From: a virus
Direction: 5' to 3' (one strand)
Length of the DNA: 21,295 nucleotides
Virus record (IMG/VR): IMGVR_UViG_3300025162_000200
Span: 1-21,295 of that record
Positions 1,260 through 13,557 of this stretch are shown here, one piece after another. The notes under the pieces are model-generated. The model was not told where the DNA came from. It was given only the letters and a program-made list of their open reading frames with translations, and did no database searches. A program made the translations under genes and the position numbers. How positions within the stretch are numbered: position 1 is the first letter of the stretch; every line of letters begins with the position of its first letter.

Positions 1260-2738
1260 CTATTCTTCTTCTGAATTAACCCATTCAATACCGGGGCAAT
1301 AATCAGTATAACTTGCTGAAAAATACTCACCAAATATACCAGTACTGCTTCCAACACCATGACCAAACATACATAGTAAATTCCAAAGAAATTTTCCTGT
1401 ATTAACTAAAACAATTTTCCAAAGCAAATTATAAAAGATAAATTTAATTGGAGTTAGAATAACATAAAAAACACCATATGCAATACCAAGAACGATATAT
1501 TTTAATGGATAGTAAATTCCATAAATAAATGGCTCGATATACCATACTCTTTTTCCACCGTGATATTTATTGATAATTGATTGTGCCCAACCAGTGAAGA
1601 AGATATAAAGAACATAAAAAATACCTCCAACAACTGCCAATGCGCCAATACTTGCAAATAAATACCAAAATTTAATACCATTATCAATTGCATATGTTAA
1701 TACCAATGAAAGTACATTAACAGTAAGAAACATAAATGCTAATATAATTACAGATATTACAACACCTGCAATTTGCTTGGTTCTTTTAATAATTAATTTC
1801 AATTTAGCAGGCTCATAAGTGAACATTTTTTCAATTGAATCAATTAATTTATTAAAACCATCAACAATTGGTTTCATTCTTGCATTCCATTTTTCTTTAC
1901 GAAGTTCATGTAAACGTTCATGTTCTATTTCTTTTAATCTTGCTTCACGGTCCTTAGCCCAACGAATATTATCCATTACTAAACGTTTATCATCACGTTC
2001 TTTACGCCAAGTATCCCATTTAGTTTTCAATTCAACTCTTTTATCTGAATATTCTTTGGGATTATTATTAATATCTAATCCATATTTTTCTAAAATAAAT
2101 TTCTGAAGAAAATCACCATCCATTTTATCTAAATAAAGTTTAGTGGTAAGCGGAAATTTAAAATCGTTACTTTTTCGTCTACCATTTTCATAATATTCAA
2201 ATGCTTCACTTTCTTCAACACCATCAATCCAAATATTGGTAGATTTTTCAAGACACCAATACAAGAACATTGGTACAACTGAAGCAGCAAAACATAAAAT
2301 ATGCCATAGTGTTACAAAAACACAAGCAAATAATGAAAAAATTAACAGCCAAAAATATGGACAGCCATTTTGCATGGTTTTAGGTGTTGGAGCAAAAACT
2401 CCAAGTACATATTTAATCAAGCGATAATGCCATGATTTTAAACTTACTCGCATAAGTTTAGGCTTTTCAGCTTGAATAATATATTGTTCTTGACCTTCAT
2501 AAAGATAAATTTTATCATTATAGAAGAACGAACCTAATGTAGACTCAACTACTTTAATATAGTACTGATTGCCATCTTTATAAAGAAAACCTTTATAATA
2601 GGCAACATTGGGTTGATTAAATTCAACCACTTTGTTTAGTAACAATTCCAGTTTTTCAACTTTGGTTGTAATTAACTGAACTGCTTTTGGCTTTTCAACC
2701 TTGTCCGTAGTGGACGGTTTTTTCTTTTTACTTGTCAT
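1260..2738 (-). CDS. Large multi-pass membrane protein with central coiled coil (492 aa)
   Basis: Order of parts: a Lys-rich N terminus; a soluble, strand-rich domain (about 20-105); a long hydrophobic region at 128-163 (one or two helices); a highly charged helical region at about 230-320 rich in Lys, Glu, Arg and Trp that looks like a coiled coil; then hydrophobic stretches at about 323-350, 357-382 and 405-440. A Gly-rich tail follows, ending near TDYCPGIEW. The start overlaps the stop of the HAD gene as ATGA, so the two are translationally coupled. No enzyme motif visible. The architecture suggests an inner-membrane scaffold or channel-like protein made by the phage. Function unknown. Confidence 0.75.
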   Translation of the reverse strand: MTSKKKKPSTTDKVEKPKAVQLITTKVEKLELLLNKVVEFNQPNVAYYKGFLYKDGNQYYIKVVESTLGSFFYNDKIYLYEGQEQYIIQAEKPKLMRVSLKSWHYRLIKYVLGVFAPTPKTMQNGCPYFWLLIFSLFACVFVTLWHILCFAASVVPMFLYWCLEKSTNIWIDGVEESEAFEYYENGRRKSNDFKFPLTTKLYLDKMDGDFLQKFILEKYGLDINNNPKEYSDKRVELKTKWDTWRKERDDKRLVMDNIRWAKDREARLKEIEHERLHELRKEKWNARMKPIVDGFNKLIDSIEKMFTYEPAKLKLIIKRTKQIAGVVISVIILAFMFLTVNVLSLVLTYAIDNGIKFWYLFASIGALAVVGGIFYVLYIFFTGWAQSIINKYHGGKRVWYIEPFIYGIYYPLKYIVLGIAYGVFYVILTPIKFIFYNLLWKIVLVNTGKFLWNLLCMFGHGVGSSTGIFGEYFSASYTDYCPGIEWVNSEEE

Positions 2739-3235
2739 TTCGATTTAATTTTAATTATTATTTTTTCTTTAATTCCGCTTTGTTTAATTCCTTCATTTGC
2801 ACGTCTACACCATATGAAATTATCGGGTATCCAATTACTTAAATTTAAATCATCAATTATAACATAATTTTTTATGTTATGTTCTTCAACATATTTTAGA
2901 ATTTCAAATGCTCGACATTTTTCTATCTGTTGCAATGATCTATAATCACTACCCATCAAATTATCAGTAAAATCAGATATTTTAAATTTAACTTTATTCC
3001 ATTCAAATATCTCATTTATTTGTTCTAAATTATAATGATATTTCCAATCCGAAGACAATATTAATATAGGATTAAACATTTCACAAACATCATTTAATAT
3101 TTTCACGCATTTTTTATCAAAAGGATAACAATCATATTTAGGATGCCATCTTTTTTTATTCATAAAATATTGATTAGTAGTCACCATAACATCATCTAAA
3201 TCGATGAACAAATATGTTTGATTATTAAAATTCAT
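2735..3235 (-). CDS. Small HAD-superfamily phosphatase-like protein
   Basis: Predicted HAD-fold hydrolase of 166 aa. Motif I is IDLDDV with the nucleophile and acid pair at D12 and D14. Motif II is the Ser in LSSDW (61-62). Motif IV is IIDD (D128, D129). The lysine or arginine of motif III is probably in EKCRAF (about 106-108). The lack of a large cap and the order of motifs resemble the small HAD domains found in phage and RNA-repair proteins. The substrate cannot be read from the sequence; 3'-phosphate ends of nucleic acid or nucleotides are plausible. A second HAD protein at 5277-5867 shares the LND(V/I)CE...L-S pattern, so the two look like paralogues. First gene of a five-gene leftward unit, 15 nt from its promoter. 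Confidence 0.75.
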   Translation of the reverse strand: MNFNNQTYLFIDLDDVMVTTNQYFMNKKRWHPKYDCYPFDKKCVKILNDVCEMFNPILILSSDWKYHYNLEQINEIFEWNKVKFKISDFTDNLMGSDYRSLQQIEKCRAFEILKYVEEHNIKNYVIIDDLNLSNWIPDNFIWCRRANEGIKQSGIKEKIIIKIKSK

Positions 3236-5276: not shown

Positions 5277-5867
5277 ATGATTATTCCTGAGAAAAACAAG
5301 TATAGTGCTATCTGCTTTCTTGACGTAGACGGTGTATTAAATCATGAACTCTTTTATAAAGAGCGTTATAAGCATTTAACCAAATTTCGTAATGTACCAT
5401 TATATAAAACGGTTAAGAAACATCTACGTAAACTTTTAAAGACTAAAGAGATTTCTGATTTTGATTATTATAAAGGTGAAATTGATGAAAATATCATTAA
5501 ATTACTCAATGATATTTGCGAAGAATTAAATATGGCTGTTGTTCTATCTGCTTCAATGAGATTAAATAATACTGTTGAAAAATTACAAGAAATTTTTAAT
5601 TATTGTGGTGCTACATTTACTATTATTGATAAAACACCATATACTGGTTATGAAAGAGGAACTGAAATAAGTAAATGGTTAAAAGAAAATTGTGATAAAT
5701 GGTTTGATGTTAACTATTATGATTTCTATAATTTTATAATAATTGATGATGATAGTGATTTTTTAATTAGTCAAGCACCACATTTATTTCAGTGCGATAA
5801 TTATTCTGGCTTAACGCCTACTATATGTTATAAAATAAAACAATTTTTAACACATAAAACATTTTGA
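5277..5867 (+). CDS. HAD-superfamily phosphatase-like protein (196 aa)
   Basis: Motif I is FLDVDGVLN with D16 and D18. Motif II is VLSAS (S91). A conserved basic residue in ERGTEISKWL (R127 or K133) would be motif III. Motif IV is IIIDDDSDF (D157, D158). It ends with the LTPT segment typical of the small HAD proteins related to those in RNA-repair enzymes. An insertion of about 40 basic residues (about 25-65) between motif I and the next helix is absent from the paralogue at 2735-3235. Likely a phosphomonoesterase on nucleotides or nucleic-acid ends; the substrate is not visible. It precedes the ATP-grasp gene by 1 nt, so the two probably act together or are at least co-translated. Confidence 0.78.
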   Translation: MIIPEKNKYSAICFLDVDGVLNHELFYKERYKHLTKFRNVPLYKTVKKHLRKLLKTKEISDFDYYKGEIDENIIKLLNDICEELNMAVVLSASMRLNNTVEKLQEIFNYCGATFTIIDKTPYTGYERGTEISKWLKENCDKWFDVNYYDFYNFIIIDDDSDFLISQAPHLFQCDNYSGLTPTICYKIKQFLTHKTF

Positions 5868-5868
5868 A

Positions 5869-6633
5869 ATGAAATTTTTAATTCAAAAAATCAACGGTGA
5901 GATCAAGCATGATTTTGCATTTACATTGTTGGAATCAATACGATATAATAATTGGTTAGAAAATGGTAATAAAATAAATTTCAAATATCTTAATACTTTA
6001 GTATCTGATGAACCTGATGATATTAGCCCATTAATACAATTCAAGCCATATCATAAAAAATATGTGCCAATTGGTAGTGTTGAGTTTGTTACACAATTTT
6101 TACAACATTTTTATAATTTAACACCTAAACCAATTAATGTTCCTGTCGAATTATTTCCTTATGCGGGAAGAACAATTATTAATGATAACGAAACTCGATC
6201 ATTTGGTCTTATTGGTAATTGGTTTATTAAAAGTAATGATAAGATAAAAGGATACAAAGAATTACAGAAATCAGAAGATTATTATGATATTATACTACCT
6301 TACGGTAATTATCAATATTCCAAATATATTAATATTGAATCAGAATGGAGAGCATTTGTATATGAAGGTAAATTGGTTGGATTACAAAATTATGGTGGAA
6401 ATTTCAGATTATTTCCAAATGTTCAAAGCATTAATGAAATGATCACTGCCTATAAATCAGCACCAATTGCATATACATTGGATGTTTTGGTTGATACACA
6501 ATTTCAAAACGAAGGAACTTATGTATGCGAGTGTCACGACTTTATATCTTGTGGTTTATATGGTTTTGCTGATCATAAATTACTTCCATATATGTTTTAT
6601 CGTTCATTTAATGAACAAATTAAAAAAAAATGA
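5869..6633 (+). CDS. ATP-grasp ligase, R2K-like
   Basis: 254-aa protein resembling the R2K clade of ATP-grasp enzymes found in phages. Visible signatures: a basic FIKS...IKG segment (about 119-128) for nucleotide binding, the hallmark SEWRAFVYEGKLVG (158-171), NYGG (174-177), then YTLDVLV (202-208) and CECHDF (220-225), where the Asp and Glu would bind metal-ATP. ATP-grasp ligases join a carboxylate to an amine through an acyl-phosphate. For R2K members a role in peptide-like modification of host or phage components has been proposed from genomics, not proven. It directly follows the HAD gene. The fold call is good; the substrate is unknown. Confidence 0.75.
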   Translation: MKFLIQKINGEIKHDFAFTLLESIRYNNWLENGNKINFKYLNTLVSDEPDDISPLIQFKPYHKKYVPIGSVEFVTQFLQHFYNLTPKPINVPVELFPYAGRTIINDNETRSFGLIGNWFIKSNDKIKGYKELQKSEDYYDIILPYGNYQYSKYINIESEWRAFVYEGKLVGLQNYGGNFRLFPNVQSINEMITAYKSAPIAYTLDVLVDTQFQNEGTYVCECHDFISCGLYGFADHKLLPYMFYRSFNEQIKKK

Positions 6634-7440: not shown

Positions 7441-7646
7441 AAGACGAAGTTAAAAACACAAAAATCAATGTTGTCTGTAATAGTTGTGGTAAAGTATTCA
7501 CAACCAACATTGGATGGGCAATGAAAAGAAAAGGTAATCTTGTTTGCTCAAAATGTTCTAAAAATAATAATATCGAGATCACTGATGGCATCGATGTTGA
7601 AAAGGCGATTGAAATTCTTAAAGGATATGGTTTGAAAATCCAATAA
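7437..7646 (+). CDS. Small zinc-ribbon protein (69 aa)
   Basis: Two CxxC knuckles, CNSCG (14-18) and CSKC (about 37-40), about 20 residues apart, form a one-zinc ribbon. A short helical tail with DVEKAIEILKGYGL follows. The length and layout fit a small nucleic-acid or protein-binding ribbon. Start and upstream stop overlap as ATGA. The partner is unknown; the neighbouring Mom/Hef-like gene begins 3 nt after its stop. Confidence 0.7.
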   Translation: MKDEVKNTKINVVCNSCGKVFTTNIGWAMKRKGNLVCSKCSKNNNIEITDGIDVEKAIEILKGYGLKIQ

Positions 7647-7649
7647 CAT

Positions 7650-8639
7650 ATGAGAAGTAAAGAAGATATTGAACATCAATATGGCACATTGCCTGACACG
7701 TTAAATTTAAATAAAATAAATACGCTTTTAAATAAGAGTACTAATAAATTTAAATTACTAAATAACGTAAAAGGCGATGTTATCAATTTTCTTTTATCGG
7801 AAAAAATATTATTTGAAGAAGATGTTAAAACATTTATAAATAATAAAGGTGTTGAACAATCAATAAACACCATAAATATTGACAAAAAGTTGATAATTAT
7901 AGTAATTGATGATTACAGTGTTTGGAATAAAAAAAATCTAATTAAAGGAACTGCCGAAAAAATACATTTTGCTTTTGTTAACGAAGGTTATAGAGTTATT
8001 TGGATAAAGAAATTTGAATGGGAAAATACCAATAAGCAAAACGTATTAAAGTCGATGATATTACACTCAATTAACAAAACAAAATTTAGGTATTTTGCTA
8101 GAAATACAGTATGCGAATGTATTAATAATTCCGATTTGAAAGATTTTTTCAATACATCATCATTTTATGGATTTAGATCAGCTTCAACTGCTGTTTGTTT
8201 AAAAGATAAAAAAACTGGAGAAATTTTACAAGCAATGAGTTTTGGTCATCCATATTATGGAAAAGGAAAATATGGTCAAAATTGTGTTGAATGTATTAGA
8301 TCAGCAGGTAAACCACACACGGTAGTAGTTGGTGGAATGACTAAATTAATGAAATTTTTCATTCAAAATTTTGGACATACGTTTGATACTATATTATATT
8401 ATGTGGATGATGCACACCATCAAAATGATTCAATGGATTCACTTGGGTTTACATTTTCACATTTTTCAGGTGGTGGCGTTCATAATGTTTGGAATAAAAC
8501 AGGAGCAATGTTTATGAGAACACCTGCATTGCATAAAGAAATCATGTTTTTTCAAAAAATAGGAGAAATATATGGTGTTCCTGATGTGGGAAATTCTGTA
8601 TTTTTATTTAAAAATGAGTTAATAACTCAGGTAGAATAA
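7650..8639 (+). CDS. Phage Hef/Mom-like protein: degenerate nuclease-like domain plus GNAT-like domain
   Basis: 329 aa. The segment at about 100-140 (EKIHFAFVNEGYRVIWI, then FEW, then KSMILHSI) has the look of the C-terminal end of the Vsr-like nuclease domain in phage Hef-type homing endonucleases. Residues about 147-290 (YFAR, FYGFRSAST, QAMSFGHPYY, VVVGGMTKLMKFFI, YYVDDAHHQND, LGFTFSH) follow the order of the GNAT-like module that accompanies those nucleases and is also related to phage Mu Mom. I cannot see a clean catalytic set for the nuclease, so it may be degenerate or divergent. Either a free-standing mobile endonuclease or a base-modifying enzyme would fit. The family assignment is from memory of sequence patterns. 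Confidence 0.55.
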   Translation: MRSKEDIEHQYGTLPDTLNLNKINTLLNKSTNKFKLLNNVKGDVINFLLSEKILFEEDVKTFINNKGVEQSINTINIDKKLIIIVIDDYSVWNKKNLIKGTAEKIHFAFVNEGYRVIWIKKFEWENTNKQNVLKSMILHSINKTKFRYFARNTVCECINNSDLKDFFNTSSFYGFRSASTAVCLKDKKTGEILQAMSFGHPYYGKGKYGQNCVECIRSAGKPHTVVVGGMTKLMKFFIQNFGHTFDTILYYVDDAHHQNDSMDSLGFTFSHFSGGGVHNVWNKTGAMFMRTPALHKEIMFFQKIGEIYGVPDVGNSVFLFKNELITQVE

Positions 8640-8717: not shown

Positions 8718-10106
8718 ATGACAATCAAACGAATTTTTGACGAAATTGGTAACGAATCTTCCACTAATGAGAAGATGGCAATTCTTTCTAAATATAAAGA
8801 TAATGAATTACTAAAAAGAGTATTATATCTTGCCAATTCAAAACGTGTTAAATTTTATATAAAACAAATTCCAGAGTATACACACCCTCCATTTTTTGTT
8901 GGTGATAATTTATTTGAATTTGGATTGAAATCTGCACTAGATAAATTAGCAGTATTAAGTAATCGAACTATTACTGGTGGTGCTGCAATTCTACATTTAA
9001 AAAATATTTTAGAAGAAAATCCTGATGATATTGCTTATATTATTGAACGTATCATTGAAAAGGATTGCAAAATTGGTATGGGTACACGCAATATTAATAA
9101 AGTGTTTCCAGATTTAATTGAAAAAACAGGTTATATGGGATGTAAACCTTATTCAAAAGAGTTGATTCAGAAATTATTGTTAAAAGGTAAAGCCTATAGT
9201 CAAGAAAAAATGGATGGAAGATTTGTTAATGCAATCATTCAAGGTGGTGAAGTATCTAATGAATCAAGACAAGGCGAACCAACTAATTTGGAAAATCCAT
9301 TATTTTTATCTGAATTAGCACAATTAAAAGATTGTGTGCTAAATGGCGAATTGACAATGGCAGATGTTTCCCGATATGAATCGAATGGAATCATTGCTTC
9401 TTTAATTAGCATTGCTAATAAGAAAGAAAATGGCGAAGATGTATCTAAAGATATTGCCAAATTGGGAAGTAAACACATGCCATATCAGGAAGCGTTATCG
9501 TTAGTTCGATTTACTGCATGGGATATTTTAACAATTGATGAATATTTTAGTAGAAAATGTAAAAGACCTTATAAAGAAAGATTTGAAGAATTAAATCAAA
9601 CATTAAAAGGATTTTCGATGCTGAATGTTGTCGAAACAAGAATTGTTTCAACAATTGAAGAAGTAATGGCACATTTCGATGAAGTTTTAAATAATAATGG
9701 TGAGGGTGTTGTTGTTAAAAGTATGGATGGCGTTTGGGTTGATAGTAAGCCCATCTATCAAGTGAAAATAAAAAATGAAATTAATTTAGATTTACGAATT
9801 ACCGGATTTAATTATGGTACTGGTAAAAATAGTCAATTAATTTCATCACTTAATTGTGAATCTGAAGAAGGTTTATTAAAGACTTCTCCAACGGGAATTA
9901 CGGAAGATGATATGGAATATATTACAAATAATCAGGATAAATTATTGAATTGTATTCTTGAGATTAAATGTTCTGGCATTTCTCAAGATAGTAAAGGTAA
10001 TTATTCACTTTTACATCCAGTATTTAAATTATTGAGAAATGATAAATTGATTGCAAACACATTAAAAGAATGTATTGAAATTAGCAAATCACACACATTA
10101 CTATAA
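8718..10106 (+). CDS. ATP-dependent DNA ligase, T4 gp30-like
   Basis: 462 aa, close to the 487 aa of T4 gp30, with similarity along its length, for example STNEKMAILSKYKDNELLKR near the N terminus. It seals nicks in DNA using ATP. Nucleotidyltransferase motifs in order: motif I EKMDGR with the AMP-accepting lysine K164, motif III LNGEL (208-212), IIIa FTAWD (265-269), IV GEGVVVK (328-334), V VKIK (349-352), then an OB-fold C-terminal domain. The N-terminal 150 residues match the helical DNA-binding domain of gp30. Its own phage-type promoter precedes it. The last 6 bases overlap, tail to tail, the end of the GIY-YIG endonuclease gene on the other strand. A role in phage replication and repair is well supported. 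Confidence 0.92.
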   Translation: MTIKRIFDEIGNESSTNEKMAILSKYKDNELLKRVLYLANSKRVKFYIKQIPEYTHPPFFVGDNLFEFGLKSALDKLAVLSNRTITGGAAILHLKNILEENPDDIAYIIERIIEKDCKIGMGTRNINKVFPDLIEKTGYMGCKPYSKELIQKLLLKGKAYSQEKMDGRFVNAIIQGGEVSNESRQGEPTNLENPLFLSELAQLKDCVLNGELTMADVSRYESNGIIASLISIANKKENGEDVSKDIAKLGSKHMPYQEALSLVRFTAWDILTIDEYFSRKCKRPYKERFEELNQTLKGFSMLNVVETRIVSTIEEVMAHFDEVLNNNGEGVVVKSMDGVWVDSKPIYQVKIKNEINLDLRITGFNYGTGKNSQLISSLNCESEEGLLKTSPTGITEDDMEYITNNQDKLLNCILEIKCSGISQDSKGNYSLLHPVFKLLRNDKLIANTLKECIEISKSHTLL

Positions 10107-10865
10107 TTTAACTGCTGACCAGCCAACATATTTTTCATATTTAGATAGTATTTCTTTTTTCATATACTTATAATTATAAATTGGTTTCCCATTATTATAA
10201 TATGAATTTCTTAACGCACAGGTAGGTAAATTATGTTCATTACATGTCAACTCAAATGTACCGTTACACATGAAAATTAATTTATTATTGTTGTCATATA
10301 TATTAATCCTAATTGCTGCTGGATTTTTCTCACCCACTGATTTACCTAACATACTTTTCGACATTTTCCCTCGTGTTTCTTTTGATAATTTTCGTCCAAT
10401 AAGTGCATTTTTAGCGTTAAGTTTATGTTCTTCTGATTTAGGTATGCCTTTTAAAGATAAAGATTGTTTTAATCTAGTTTCGTCACTTAGTTTAATTCCC
10501 AGTTTAGCATTCCTCATTTTTTCTCTCGATTCATCAGTCAACACATAATCACAGCAATAGCCACCACCAATTGTCATATTATATCCATTTCTATATGAAT
10601 CATAATGTTTAATATAAAATATTTCACGATTATTTACTTCGGGTAAAGAAGATATATTATTTTCCAATATTTCTTCATGAAAGTTTTCAATTCCGTATTT
10701 TTTGAGGGCTAAATGGAATTTAAATTTACTGGCTTTAGTGCTTAAATAAATATGTTCATATCTTCTCAATTCAAATCCTCGACAAGTAAACCCAATATAT
10801 GATTTATTATTAATTTTATTGGTGAATTTATAAATAAGATATATTTTATTTTCAACTCGTTTCAT
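10101..10865 (-). CDS. GIY-YIG homing endonuclease with NUMOD3-type repeats
   Basis: 254 aa. The N-terminal GIY-YIG domain shows IYLIYKFTN (8-16), SYIGFT (22-27), the catalytic-region arginine in FELRRYEH (34-35), the metal-binding Glu in NREIFYI (E81) and the closing NGYNMTIGG. From about 108 to 180 there are three or four repeats of the type T.E...K...A..G, which fit NUMOD3 DNA-binding modules, and then a tail that may carry a DNA-binding helix. This is the layout of the Seg/I-TevI-like free-standing endonucleases of T4-like phages, which cut a target in a related genome to spread. It is on the minus strand with a ribbon-helix-helix gene overlapping its start, and its 3' end overlaps the ligase gene by 6 bp. 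Confidence 0.85.
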   Translation of the reverse strand: MKRVENKIYLIYKFTNKINNKSYIGFTCRGFELRRYEHIYLSTKASKFKFHLALKKYGIENFHEEILENNISSLPEVNNREIFYIKHYDSYRNGYNMTIGGGYCCDYVLTDESREKMRNAKLGIKLSDETRLKQSLSLKGIPKSEEHKLNAKNALIGRKLSKETRGKMSKSMLGKSVGEKNPAAIRINIYDNNNKLIFMCNGTFELTCNEHNLPTCALRNSYYNNGKPIYNYKYMKKEILSKYEKYVGWSAVKL

Positions 10866-11001: not shown

Positions 11002-11059
11002 TTATATGTTTTCTTATAAATACTTTGTCAATTGAAAAAATCTTGTTTAAATACTCTTG

Positions 11060-11081
11060 ATATGTAAAATATTTTACATAT
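11060..11081. promoter_or_regulatory. Perfect 22-bp palindrome, candidate operator
   Basis: Half-site ATATGTAAAAT (11060-11070) is followed at once by its exact reverse complement (11071-11081). It lies between the leftward ribbon-helix-helix/endonuclease cassette and the rightward LemA-like gene, and ends 1 nt before the TTTG box of the rightward promoter. A dimeric repressor bound here could affect that promoter. Confidence 0.55.
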
Positions 11082-11082
11082 A

Positions 11083-11115
11083 TTTGTAACAAATTATAAA
11101 AGGATTACGTATAAG
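11083..11115 (+). promoter_or_regulatory. Phage-type promoter for the LemA-like gene
   Basis: TTTGTAAC (11083-11090), 16 nt, ACGTATAAG (11107-11115); the ATG is 27 nt on. It abuts the 22-bp palindrome. The leader TAAATTTAAAATT before the ATG is close to that of the AAA ATPase gene. Confidence 0.75.
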
Positions 11116-11142: not shown

Positions 11143-11682
11143 ATGAAAAGTTTTTTAATTGGATTAGGTGTTTTAGTCTTTGCCGTTACTTTTGCCCTTA
11201 TATGGGGAATTACTTTAAGTAATAGTGAGATTGACATTAAAACTAAAGGATTGGCGCAGCAAAAGAATTGTACTGCTTATTTCGACAAGATGTGGAAAGT
11301 GCTTCAGCAAGATGCAAGTGTTGCTGATCAGTACAAAGAAGCATTTAAAGAAATTTATGTTCCATTGATTGAGGGTCGTTATGCTAAAGGTGATGGTACT
11401 TTGATGAAATGGATTCAGGAAAGCAATCCGACATTTAGTACAGAATCATATACTAAACTTATGACTGCAATCGAAGGTCAGCGTGAAGGTTTCTTTATCG
11501 AACAACAGAAGTTGATTGATATTGACCGTGAGCATAAAAGAATGCGCCAATCATTTCCCAATAGTATGATTATTGGTAAACGTCCTGATTTGAATATTGT
11601 TGTTATTACGTCAGCAAGAACCAATGATGCAAATAGTACTGGTCAGGATAATGATGTTGATTTGTTCAAAAAAACCAAGTAA
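11143..11682 (+). CDS. LemA-like membrane-anchored protein
   Basis: 179 aa. One N-terminal membrane helix (about 4-24) is followed by an SNSEIDIK segment and then long amphipathic helices to about residue 145 (CTAYFDKMWKVLQQ, YKEAFKEIYVPLIEGRY, LMTAIEGQREGFFIEQQKLID), and a short polar tail. This is the layout of LemA: a short N terminus, one membrane anchor and a helical bundle. LemA function is not well defined; bacterial members are often encoded beside TPM-domain membrane proteins, and a large membrane protein with a possible TPM-like region follows at 12229. Codon use differs visibly from the neighbours (more G and C, CAG for Gln, CGT for Arg), which suggests high expression or a different origin. 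It has its own phage-type promoter. Confidence 0.65.
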   Translation: MKSFLIGLGVLVFAVTFALIWGITLSNSEIDIKTKGLAQQKNCTAYFDKMWKVLQQDASVADQYKEAFKEIYVPLIEGRYAKGDGTLMKWIQESNPTFSTESYTKLMTAIEGQREGFFIEQQKLIDIDREHKRMRQSFPNSMIIGKRPDLNIVVITSARTNDANSTGQDNDVDLFKKTK

Positions 11683-11684
11683 AC

Positions 11685-11715
11685 TATAACAAAACAATAT
11701 CATTGCTCGTATAAG
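11685..11715 (+). promoter_or_regulatory. Degenerate phage-type promoter for the structured RNA
   Basis: TATAAC (11685-11690), exactly 16 nt, then TCGTATAAG (11707-11715). This matches TTGTAAC-N16-ACGTATAAG with changes at the edges of both boxes and the spacing kept. It starts 2 nt after the LemA-like stop. The -7 box also sits in a small hairpin (ATTGCT/AGCAAT, 11702-11719), so a weak terminator is the alternative reading. Confidence 0.5.
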
Positions 11716-11736
11716 CAATAAGTTCTTTGAATAAAT

Positions 11737-12080
11737 AAAGGAAAGGTCAGTCAATATAAGGCTATCATAACACTAGAGTTATGGCAATGCATGGATAATT
11801 ACCATGTCCTTTTCTTTTAAAACTACCTGATTTAACAAATAGGTGTGCGTGTTGAAATAAACAGCCTTACAATTGAAATCAGTACCAATGGGTAAGCATT
11901 AGATTTTGCCAAGATCGTTATTTGTTGAATGATTTGGTTTTGTGGGTGTCATGGATTCACAAGGCATAACAAATTACCATGTGGCTAGGGTCAGGTAGTT
12001 TTTTAAAATGTTGTCGGGTCATTCCCGAATGAACTGAGGGGATACGGGGTAGCCTTAGATAGATTGACAAAAAGCCCGTA
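11737..12080 (+). ncRNA. Candidate structured non-coding RNA, multi-domain
   Basis: No gene fits 11683-12228. By eye the region folds into several stems. Domain 1: a 10-bp stem, 11737-11746 with 11808-11817 (one G-U), encloses hairpins CATAAC/GTTATG (11766-11783) and CATGG/CCATG (11790-11806). Domain 2: a perfect 12-bp stem, 11819-11830 with 11991-12002, encloses a second stem, 11831-11841 with 11919-11929. Inside that, AAATC/GATTT (11876-11906) holds hairpin TACC-AATG-GGTA (11883-11894). Domain 2 also has CATGG (11950-11954) facing CCATG (11977-11981). Domain 3: TCGGG/CCCGA (12014-12028) and CTGAGG/CCTTAG (12034-12058). Stems with perfect complementarity across 160 nt are unlikely by chance. 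A tRNA-like element follows. I do not recognise the family; large phage RNAs such as GOLLD and ROOL are also found beside tRNA genes. Confidence 0.6.
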
Positions 12081-12083
12081 CAC

Positions 12084-12203
12084 GTTTGGGTGGCGGAACG
12101 GGTAGATTCAAGAAGGGCGGAATGCAAATAACCAAGCAGAGGGGTTCGATTCCCTGATGCGTAGGTCTAATCTTGAATGCAGGTTCGAGTCCTGCTCCAA
12201 ACA
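12084..12203 (+). tRNA. tRNA-like element, Leu-like 5' half, with a 57-nt insert in the anticodon loop
   Basis: Acceptor strands GTTTGGG (12084-12090) and TCCAAAC (12196-12202) pair over 7 bp with one G-U, followed by discriminator A12203 and no encoded CCA. TGGCGGAACGGGTAGA after the acceptor matches the D-arm region of leucine tRNAs (TGGCGGAATTGGTAGA), but the D stem pairs poorly (GCG with TTC). The T arm GCAGG-TTCGAGT-CCTGC (12179-12195) is perfect. The anticodon stem would be TTCAAGA (12107-12113) with TCTTGAA (12171-12177). Between them lie 57 nt instead of 7. That insert contains a second T-arm-like hairpin, GGGG-TTCGATT-CCCT (12141-12155). No anticodon can be named safely. It may be a tRNA with an insertion, a tRNA relic or a tRNA-like end of the upstream RNA. 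Confidence 0.5.
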
Positions 12204-12228
12204 CAAGTATTAATTAAAAACAAATATC

Positions 12229-13557
12229 ATGTATTACCTTGCATTATTAGTACCATTTTTTATGACATTAGGTTTCTATTTTTTTAGAAAAAATCAATTT
12301 AAATGGTGGGAATTTTTTATACCGATTGGTGTGGTTTTAATTACTATTGTTATTTCCAAATTAATTATTGATACTTCCAGTGTTAAATTTACAGAATATT
12401 GGGGTTCAACTGTAACAGCAATTTATGAACAAGAGCCATATAATTATTGGCAGCATCAAACCTGTTCATATACCACTACGGATAGTAAAGGTAATTCTAC
12501 AACACATTATTATGATTGTTCACATCAGGTTGATGAAGCACCTAAATGGTATGCTGTTACTGATTTAAAAGAAAGTTTTACAATATCTGAAAAAGATTAC
12601 GATCAATTATCATTACAGTTTAAAAATCAACGACAAATTGTAGATACTAAAGACAATTATGCTCCACGTGATAGATGTGTTGGTAGTGACGGTACTAAAT
12701 TTGAAGGAAAAAGTGTTGGAAATCAATCATATACTTATGAAGTTGTTTGGAATAAGGATGATAACACACGAAAAGCATTAACTAGTAGACATAACTATGT
12801 AAATAAAATTAAAGCAACCGATTTATCTATATTTAATATTTCTTTAGTTAATGAAAAACAAGCGGATAGTTTAAAACTATTTAAATACCCATTATGTAAA
12901 AATGATAATCTATTTCAAAACACAAATGGATTGAATTATCCAACCATTCTAGGTGGTAATGTTTCTGATACTATTCATGAGAAATTCAGAAGACTTAATG
13001 GTAAATTTGGTGTTAGCAATGAATTACGTTTATGGATATTAATTTTTGAAGATAAACCATTATCTATTGCAAAATATCAGGAAAATTATTGGGTAAGGGG
13101 AAATATGAATGAGTTGGTTGTGTGTATTGGTGTAAAAGATAATCAGATACAATGGTCATATCCATTTTCATGGGCGTTATCCAATGAATTAACCATTGAT
13201 GTTAGGGATAAGATAATGAACTTGTATCAATATAAAGATACAATTATAAAAAGGCAAATTCCTATTATTGCTAATAAATTAACTAAGAAATTGAAGATGC
13301 CTATTCAGTATGCTGATTCAACACTTAGAGTAAAATCGCCTAATTATCCTGTTTTAACAAATAGTACTTGGAATGAATTGTATACATACTTAGATAGTAA
13401 TTTATATAGATTTCATAGAAGAAGTTTTAAAGAATTTGATTACTTAACCGTTGAACCATCGAAGGGTGCAATTATATTTATTTGGATATTAGCACTTCTT
13501 ATTTCAGTCGGTGTTAATGTTTGGGTTATTACAAATGAATTTAATGAAGATAATTAA
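12229..13557 (+). CDS. Membrane protein with large extracytoplasmic domain (442 aa)
   Basis: Two membrane helices at the N terminus (about 2-18 and 28-46) and one near the C terminus (about 412-436) flank a polar domain of about 365 residues. This domain has CSYTTTDSKGN...YYDCSHQ (C79 and C97), which could form a disulfide across a short loop, and a strand-rich region. Residues about 265-335 (LRLWILIFED, YWVRGNMNELVVCIGV, IQWSYPFSWAL) faintly resemble a TPM domain. That would fit the LemA-like gene just upstream, since LemA and TPM proteins often go together, but the match is weak. No promoter directly precedes it, so it is probably read through from the RNA promoter or the LemA-like gene. 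Function unknown. Confidence 0.75.
   Translation: MYYLALLVPFFMTLGFYFFRKNQFKWWEFFIPIGVVLITIVISKLIIDTSSVKFTEYWGSTVTAIYEQEPYNYWQHQTCSYTTTDSKGNSTTHYYDCSHQVDEAPKWYAVTDLKESFTISEKDYDQLSLQFKNQRQIVDTKDNYAPRDRCVGSDGTKFEGKSVGNQSYTYEVVWNKDDNTRKALTSRHNYVNKIKATDLSIFNISLVNEKQADSLKLFKYPLCKNDNLFQNTNGLNYPTILGGNVSDTIHEKFRRLNGKFGVSNELRLWILIFEDKPLSIAKYQENYWVRGNMNELVVCIGVKDNQIQWSYPFSWALSNELTIDVRDKIMNLYQYKDTIIKRQIPIIANKLTKKLKMPIQYADSTLRVKSPNYPVLTNSTWNELYTYLDSNLYRFHRRSFKEFDYLTVEPSKGAIIFIWILALLISVGVNVWVITNEFNEDN

Follow-up and report, generated by a model that had tools for sequence, protein, structure and literature searches.

What is encoded between the gene for a virion structural protein and the next gene downstream in a viral record from IMG/VR? 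In the window, the whole 21,295-base stretch of this record that was analysed, a gene matching PHROG 1383 (virion structural protein; positions 11143–11682, plus strand) is separated by several hundred bases from a gene matching PHROG 2087 (function unknown; 12229–13557, plus strand). A first-pass annotation had described the upstream gene as LemA-like, a name that is not supported, as the gene matches PHROG 1383 and no Pfam or NCBIfam model matched it. The same annotation had seen no reading frame in the interval, and none of at least 50 aa is present on the sense strand from the gene end at 11682 to the next gene start at 12229; the sole ORF of this size in the gap, of 56 aa with a TTG start, lies on the opposite strand. 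The G+C content was also said to exceed that of the surrounding genes, and it is 0.37 at 11720–12079 compared to 0.35 and 0.28 in the flanking genes (0.51 in a tRNA-like element farther 3' and 0.27 in the whole window). The analysis described below assigns the RNA encoded here to a new family of structured phage non-coding RNAs, called M1, and places it within a longer non-coding transcript.

The two flanking genes are immediately adjacent in many phages, and they lie 0.4–3.7 kb apart in a group that includes the closest relatives of the window. The PHROG 1383 gene also precedes the RNA in L017, L097, L143 and L147, and the PHROG 2087 gene follows it, directly or past other genes, in the long-interval group. 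The interval in several of these phages contains a boxA-like AGTTCTTTGA, a structured stretch, a tRNA-like element, a second conserved stretch and a terminator-like hairpin. The IMG/VR relatives are contigs of up to 365 kb, and the nearest match of the window DNA ligase among deposited phages is to Cellulophaga phages (48%); the M1 RNA is carried by large viruses of Bacteroidetes-type bacteria. Some separate features of these genomes were noted in passing. The PHROG 1383 homologue of L001 (7462–7983) is broken near its start by in-frame stops, counted as one TGA and one TAA, one of which could be the regular stop codon; a sequencing error, recoding or decay would account for them. Homing-endonuclease-like genes (GIY-YIG/NUMOD3; PHROG 3339) are found in the window at 10101–10865 (minus strand), near the RNA, and at 7650–8639 (plus strand). 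A CRISPR-like array with direct repeats of about 36 bases (GGTGGAAACCAACCTAAATTGGAAGGGTTTAACACC) and unique spacers lies at about 16240–16550 of L003, a 218-kb phage contig.

Three stems had been read by eye in the interval, and all of them are perfect Watson–Crick helices, of 12 bp (11819–11830 with 11991–12002), 10 bp (11737–11746 with 11808–11817) and 11 bp (11831–11841 with 11919–11929). The longest Watson–Crick stem in any of 60 dinucleotide shuffles was 11 bp. The folding energy of 11690–12215 is -144.9 kcal/mol (z -3.48), a value that none of 100 shuffles equalled, and the folds of 11700–12080 and 11817–12004 have z values of -2.72 and -2.51, respectively. It should be mentioned that energy alone is a poor test, because the conserved M1 domain of L097 has a z of only -1.3.

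Searches with the window RNA by blastn and nhmmer returned tRNA T-arm similarity only and no nucleotide homologues. Relatives of the RNA were located through the synteny of the flanking genes, and a 20-mer common to L097, L143 and L147 led to phages with the RNA elsewhere, near a DNA ligase gene (L009/L010, L006 and L011). Occurrences of this 20-mer in bacterial genomes (L213–L215) are attributed to chance, being without M1 structure and without a tRNA. Two conserved modules emerged from the relatives, M1 on the 5' side of the tRNA-like elements (alignment A4) and M3 on their 3' side (alignment A5), the latter with a covarying helix of five pairs. The first 35–40 nt of M1 are near-identical in six phages, and their coding neighbours differ by 30–45%. 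A covariance model of M1 built from six phages with the window left out, R1, matched the window at 11809–12007 with 27.5 bits (E 7.7e-5 over 1.34 Mb, a rough value, as are all E-values of the M1 models, because the calibration was shortened). A search of whole records brought in the 328-kb record G058 as a further member, and the second model that includes it, R3, again with the window left out, matched the same plus-strand positions with 34.1 bits (a similarly rough E of 1.1e-6 over 1.34 Mb), compared to 14.0 bits for the best non-member. R3 also matches M1 in G066 (44.5 bits) and G112 (46.2 bits), with a weak copy in G081 (20.7 bits). L237 (20.7 bits) is counted as a weak member only, and matches of 15–19 bits in L238–L241 and L245 were not accepted as M1.

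M1 is a domain of about 200 nt with five helices, P1–P5, present in ten phages including the window. Among these ten robust members the window copy has diverged most, and aligning it pairwise with the M1 of L231 by MAFFT was uninformative. R3 did not find M1 in Cellulophaga phage phi4:1, Lak-C1 or the 595-kb LR756511. At the corresponding site of L017, boxA, M3 and a tRNA-like element are present but M1 is not recognisable, and the window has no M3. The modules are evidently separable, since L144, L137, L145 and L014 have tRNA-like elements and M3 without M1. A nucleotide search of 50,697 GenBank phage records gave zero M1 matches, which indicates that isolate-based work has missed this RNA, and no description of it was found in the open-access literature. 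We are highly confident that M1 exists, with the structure described here, as a previously uncatalogued phage RNA family.

Alignment to R3 shows that the 12-bp and 11-bp stems read by eye are P1 (spanning 11819–12002) and P2 (11831–11929), the conserved helices 1 and 2 of A10, the alignment of the ten robust members fitted to the covariance model. P1 and P2 are paired in 98.9% and 97.1% of the A10 cells, respectively. P3 (11842–11846 with 11896–11900), helix 3, is weaker in the window, with three G-U pairs. The P4 hairpin (11902–11906 with 11912–11916), helix 4, has both-side changes at all five of its pairs, and P5 (11976–11978 with 11988–11990), helix 5, is weak in the window, where it has three pairs only. 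All of these helices lie on the plus strand. Over the whole of A10, 95.8% of cells are paired, compared to 80.1 after shuffling and 41–47% in slid controls, and both-side changes with pairing kept occur at 20 of 32 pairs (8.6 when shuffled), counts to be taken with caution as they rest on an alignment fitted to the model. The covariation score is 0.530 compared to 0.197 for shuffled alignments, and none of 500 shuffles reached the observed value on any measure. When the window is added to the six-phage set, three pairs of P1 and one of P2 gain both-side changes. The minimum-energy fold of the window does not include P2, so that the support for this helix is comparative and not energetic, and the reading by eye outdid folding there. 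Considering that ten phages keep the shape and change the letters, the M1 RNA itself must do something.

The 10-bp stem stands apart from the two conserved helices. It closes an extra 5' domain of 80 nt (11737–11817, plus strand) that is not seen in the relatives. This domain is an alternative to an outer pairing with 12050–12068, namely a possible helix spanning 11746–12068 (11746–11752 with 12062–12068, and 11758–11764 with 12050–12056) that occurs in the minimum-energy fold only and is without comparative support. An 80-nt linker separates M1 from the tRNA-like element in the window, and in the predicted fold it may pair back with the extra 5' domain. The window copy could also be regarded as a functionless remnant of a tRNA cluster, the product of chance or decay, considering that it is the most diverged robust member and has neither M3 nor the palindrome described below. 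We regard this as very improbable, because P1 and P2 show perfect pairing with compensatory changes, which decay would not yield; moreover, shuffled sequences fold worse than the window region.

How would such an RNA be transcribed? In seven of the ten robust members (L097, L147, L143, L009, L006, L011 and L250), a boxA (GTTCTTT) lies directly 5' of M1. The boxA-like element of the window, AGTTCTTTGA, is found at 11721–11730 (plus strand), 91 nt before P1, with a degenerate second boxA-like stretch at 11809–11818 within M1; L231 and L243 have no recognisable boxA beside M1. The background frequency of GTTCTTTGA is 0.013 per kb across the loci. The M1-type boxA sequence is also present in the leader and spacer of two of four Bacteroidales rRNA loci examined, the other two being without it. 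In pre-rRNA, boxA acts together with long-range leader-trailer helices (PMC10250234). From these sequence matches we infer that the boxA of the M1 loci would serve in antitermination.

The promoter assigned to the RNA in the first-pass annotation could not be substantiated. Between 10900 and 12300 there are 7 sigma-70-like sites compared to 7.1 expected by chance, and 11683–11720 contains no TAnnTTTG box. The nearest good Bacteroidetes-type promoter is located 5' of the virion gene, at 11057–11086 on the plus strand, a candidate consisting of TTG at 11057, a 19-nt spacer and TATATTTG at 11079–11086. Judged by these motifs, the window RNA is likelier to be transcribed by read-through from the virion-gene promoter than from a promoter of its own. 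In L009, L006, L011 and L212, the RNA does not follow the virion gene. A TAnnTTTG box lies just 5' of boxA in these phages, and the RNA there probably starts its own transcript.

Every M1 member is flanked, on at least one side, by a tRNA or tRNA-like element. This linkage, together with boxA, can be read in another way, in which M1 merely serves a phage tRNA operon as leader or spacer, with boxA and the long-range helix aiding tRNA transcription and processing, and is functionless afterwards. Ordinary tRNA-Leu genes do adjoin M1 in L231 and L243, and the leader-trailer helix is essential in rRNA maturation (PMC10250234). However, M1 is better conserved than the tRNA-like elements that accompany it, which have lost the normal anticodon arm, and the weak M1 copy of L237 comes after the tRNAs and not before them. 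A leader or spacer role is therefore considered somewhat unlikely, and we prefer M1 as an RNA with a function of its own. The tRNA-Leu genes near M1 suggest by inference that the tRNA-like elements descend from true tRNAs.

These elements, 92–170 nt in length, keep the acceptor stem, D loop and T arm, and a structured insert replaces the normal anticodon arm and variable region. The one adjoining M1 in the window (12084–12203, plus strand) has a 7-bp acceptor stem (12084–12090 with 12196–12202), a T arm at 12179–12195 and a Leu-type D loop with no D stem. In place of the anticodon arm there is a 7-bp stem (12107–12113 with 12171–12177), and the insert contains a second T-arm-like hairpin (12138–12155, plus strand); an internal hairpin of this kind is also found in the tRNA-like elements of L098/L099. 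No anticodon arm with a 7-nt loop is present in the window element, which was not called by ARAGORN or Rfam, and the element of L147 attains the Rfam tRNA cut-off. In a pattern search, long tRNA-like elements were found mainly in M1-type phages. Other very long tRNA-like genes were seen in L057 (9358–9470), L037 (1581–1699), L098 (5036–5204), L174 (1597–1765) and L176 (520–648 and 819–937), some of which have an exceptionally long variable arm or a pair of T-arm-like hairpins. In L250, a 345-kb phage record (about 1311–1493, 1501–1714 and 1717 onward), a giant tRNA-like element lies 5' of M1, with a second boxA and then a tRNA-type 5' half on the 3' side.

The genes near the RNA in its relatives point to RNA repair. 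Ten relatives encode an Rnl2-family RNA ligase on the 3' side of the RNA, and several have a Thg1-type tRNA 5' polymerase farther downstream; the pair is found at 7614–8477 and 8605–9453 of L097, and also in L143, L147, L212, L145 and others. This neighbourhood may possibly reflect tRNA repair. The tRNA-like elements could then be precursors of working tRNAs, with the inserts removed, the ends joined by the phage ligase and repaired by the Thg1-type enzyme, and M1 assisting. What remains after removal of the insert argues against such a pathway, as it has no normal 7-nt anticodon loop in L017 and L144 (CCGAAAGA) and a 4-nt loop in L006; the window element is unable to form a D stem, and no Rnl2-type ligase was seen in the window fragment. 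We find this precursor pathway quite improbable.

The retention of acceptor, T arm and D loop with loss of the anticodon arm would also suit a decoy, in which tRNA-like modules that have no anticodon loop would soak up, or evade, host tRNA-handling enzymes or the nucleases that cut tRNAs in defence. The HAD_SAK_2 domain is the HAD domain of Swiss Army Knife RNA repair proteins. Two HAD_SAK_2 genes and one R2K ATP-grasp gene are located in the window at 2735–3235 (minus strand), 5277–5867 (plus strand) and 5869–6633 (plus strand), and RNA-repair genes nearby, the two HAD_SAK_2 genes among them, would be in keeping with a decoy. The strong conservation of M1 or M3 is left unexplained by it, however, and a decoy role has little probability in our estimate.

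The inserts offer a different lead. An 8-nt palindrome is present in the insert of 11 of 15 tRNA-like elements, compared to a mean of 4.0 in shuffled inserts; 0 of 2000 trials reached 11, a figure that is not a strict probability because only base composition was kept and the elements are related. Nine of the palindromes are centred on TGCA (GGTGCACC four times, AGTGCACT and CGTGCACG twice each, CATGCATG once). The L145 insert has CGTGCATG, which is palindromic when G-U pairs are allowed, and the tRNA-like element of the window has no 8-nt palindrome. As an 8-nt palindrome is unable to pair with itself as a hairpin, the symmetric changes suggest pairing between two copies, or a DNA site. A kissing-loop argument from covarying palindromes was made earlier for OLE and GOLLD (PMC12286853). 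The palindromic loops of the relatives could thus be taken, as a lead only, to hint at homo-oligomer formation. That the transcript is a self-assembling RNA akin to GOLLD and ROOL, its tRNA-derived modules providing a symmetric kissing loop instead of decoding, is a tentative idea that we consider unlikely as it stands.

The best explanation for the homology, the conserved helices, the position of boxA, the linkage to tRNAs and tRNA-like elements and the absence of coding is a long transcript consisting of boxA, M1 and one or more tRNAs or tRNA-like elements, with M3 and a terminator in many relatives. We propose that RNA polymerase would enter from the virion-gene promoter, or from the RNA's own promoter at other sites, and that boxA would recruit host Nus antitermination factors. 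With these factors loaded, the untranslated structured RNA could be transcribed in full and the long-range P1 could form, as in pre-rRNA. The tRNA-processing enzymes may recognise the tRNA-like element, in which the structured insert would replace decoding, and excise it to leave a defined 3' end of M1. M1, with M3 where present, might then build up as a stable structural RNA working in the manner of GOLLD and ROOL. The mechanism as a whole, from boxA antitermination and tRNA-type release to a stable non-coding RNA with a GOLLD/ROOL-like way of working, appears to us about equally apt to be right or wrong.

To our knowledge, there are few known examples of large structured RNAs in phages, and even for the most familiar, GOLLD and ROOL, the function is unsolved. 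The M1 family is smaller and modular and is found in contigs of up to 345 kb. It brings together a conserved RNA domain, a boxA of the rRNA type and elements that derive from tRNAs but have no normal anticodon arm, and it opens a direct test of tRNA-like elements as processing or assembly modules of phage RNAs. The homologues, the covariation and the recurrent tRNA linkage strongly support the initial view of a structured non-coding RNA distinct from both GOLLD and ROOL. An Rfam scan of the region gave zero matches even at E 10, including none to introns, ribozymes, riboswitches or RNase P RNA (for which AGGAAAG and TAGATAGATTGAC looked similar by eye), and ARAGORN found no tmRNA in the window. 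GOLLD (RF02032) has no match in the window, and its best score in 12 relatives is 13.2 bits compared to a cut-off of 150. ROOL (RF03087) has no match at E 10, with which the full Rfam scans agree; this is weaker evidence than for GOLLD, as no positive control gave a match in the ROOL search.

The pre-rRNA leader, like M1, has tRNAs in its transcript and a boxA that closely precedes the 5' strand of a long-range helix, but M1 is accompanied by no rRNA, and the enclosed domain is a separate conserved RNA. The acceptor stem, D loop and T arm of the tRNA-like elements are those of tRNA and tmRNA, and tmRNA also exchanges the anticodon arm for a long stem; the elements differ from tRNA in the missing anticodon arm and in their length. 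ROOL resembles M1 as a phage or prophage RNA near tRNA islands. GOLLD, also phage-encoded, non-coding and beside or around tRNAs, consists of two domains, one 5' and one 3', whose linker sometimes contains tRNAs, an architecture similar to that of M1 (PMC12286853), and covarying palindromic loops as in the tRNA-like elements of M1 relatives. In contrast to GOLLD, which exceeds 800 nt, M1 is about 200 nt within a whole transcript of about 450–600 nt, and this transcript is led by boxA and carries tRNA-like elements without the normal anticodon arm.
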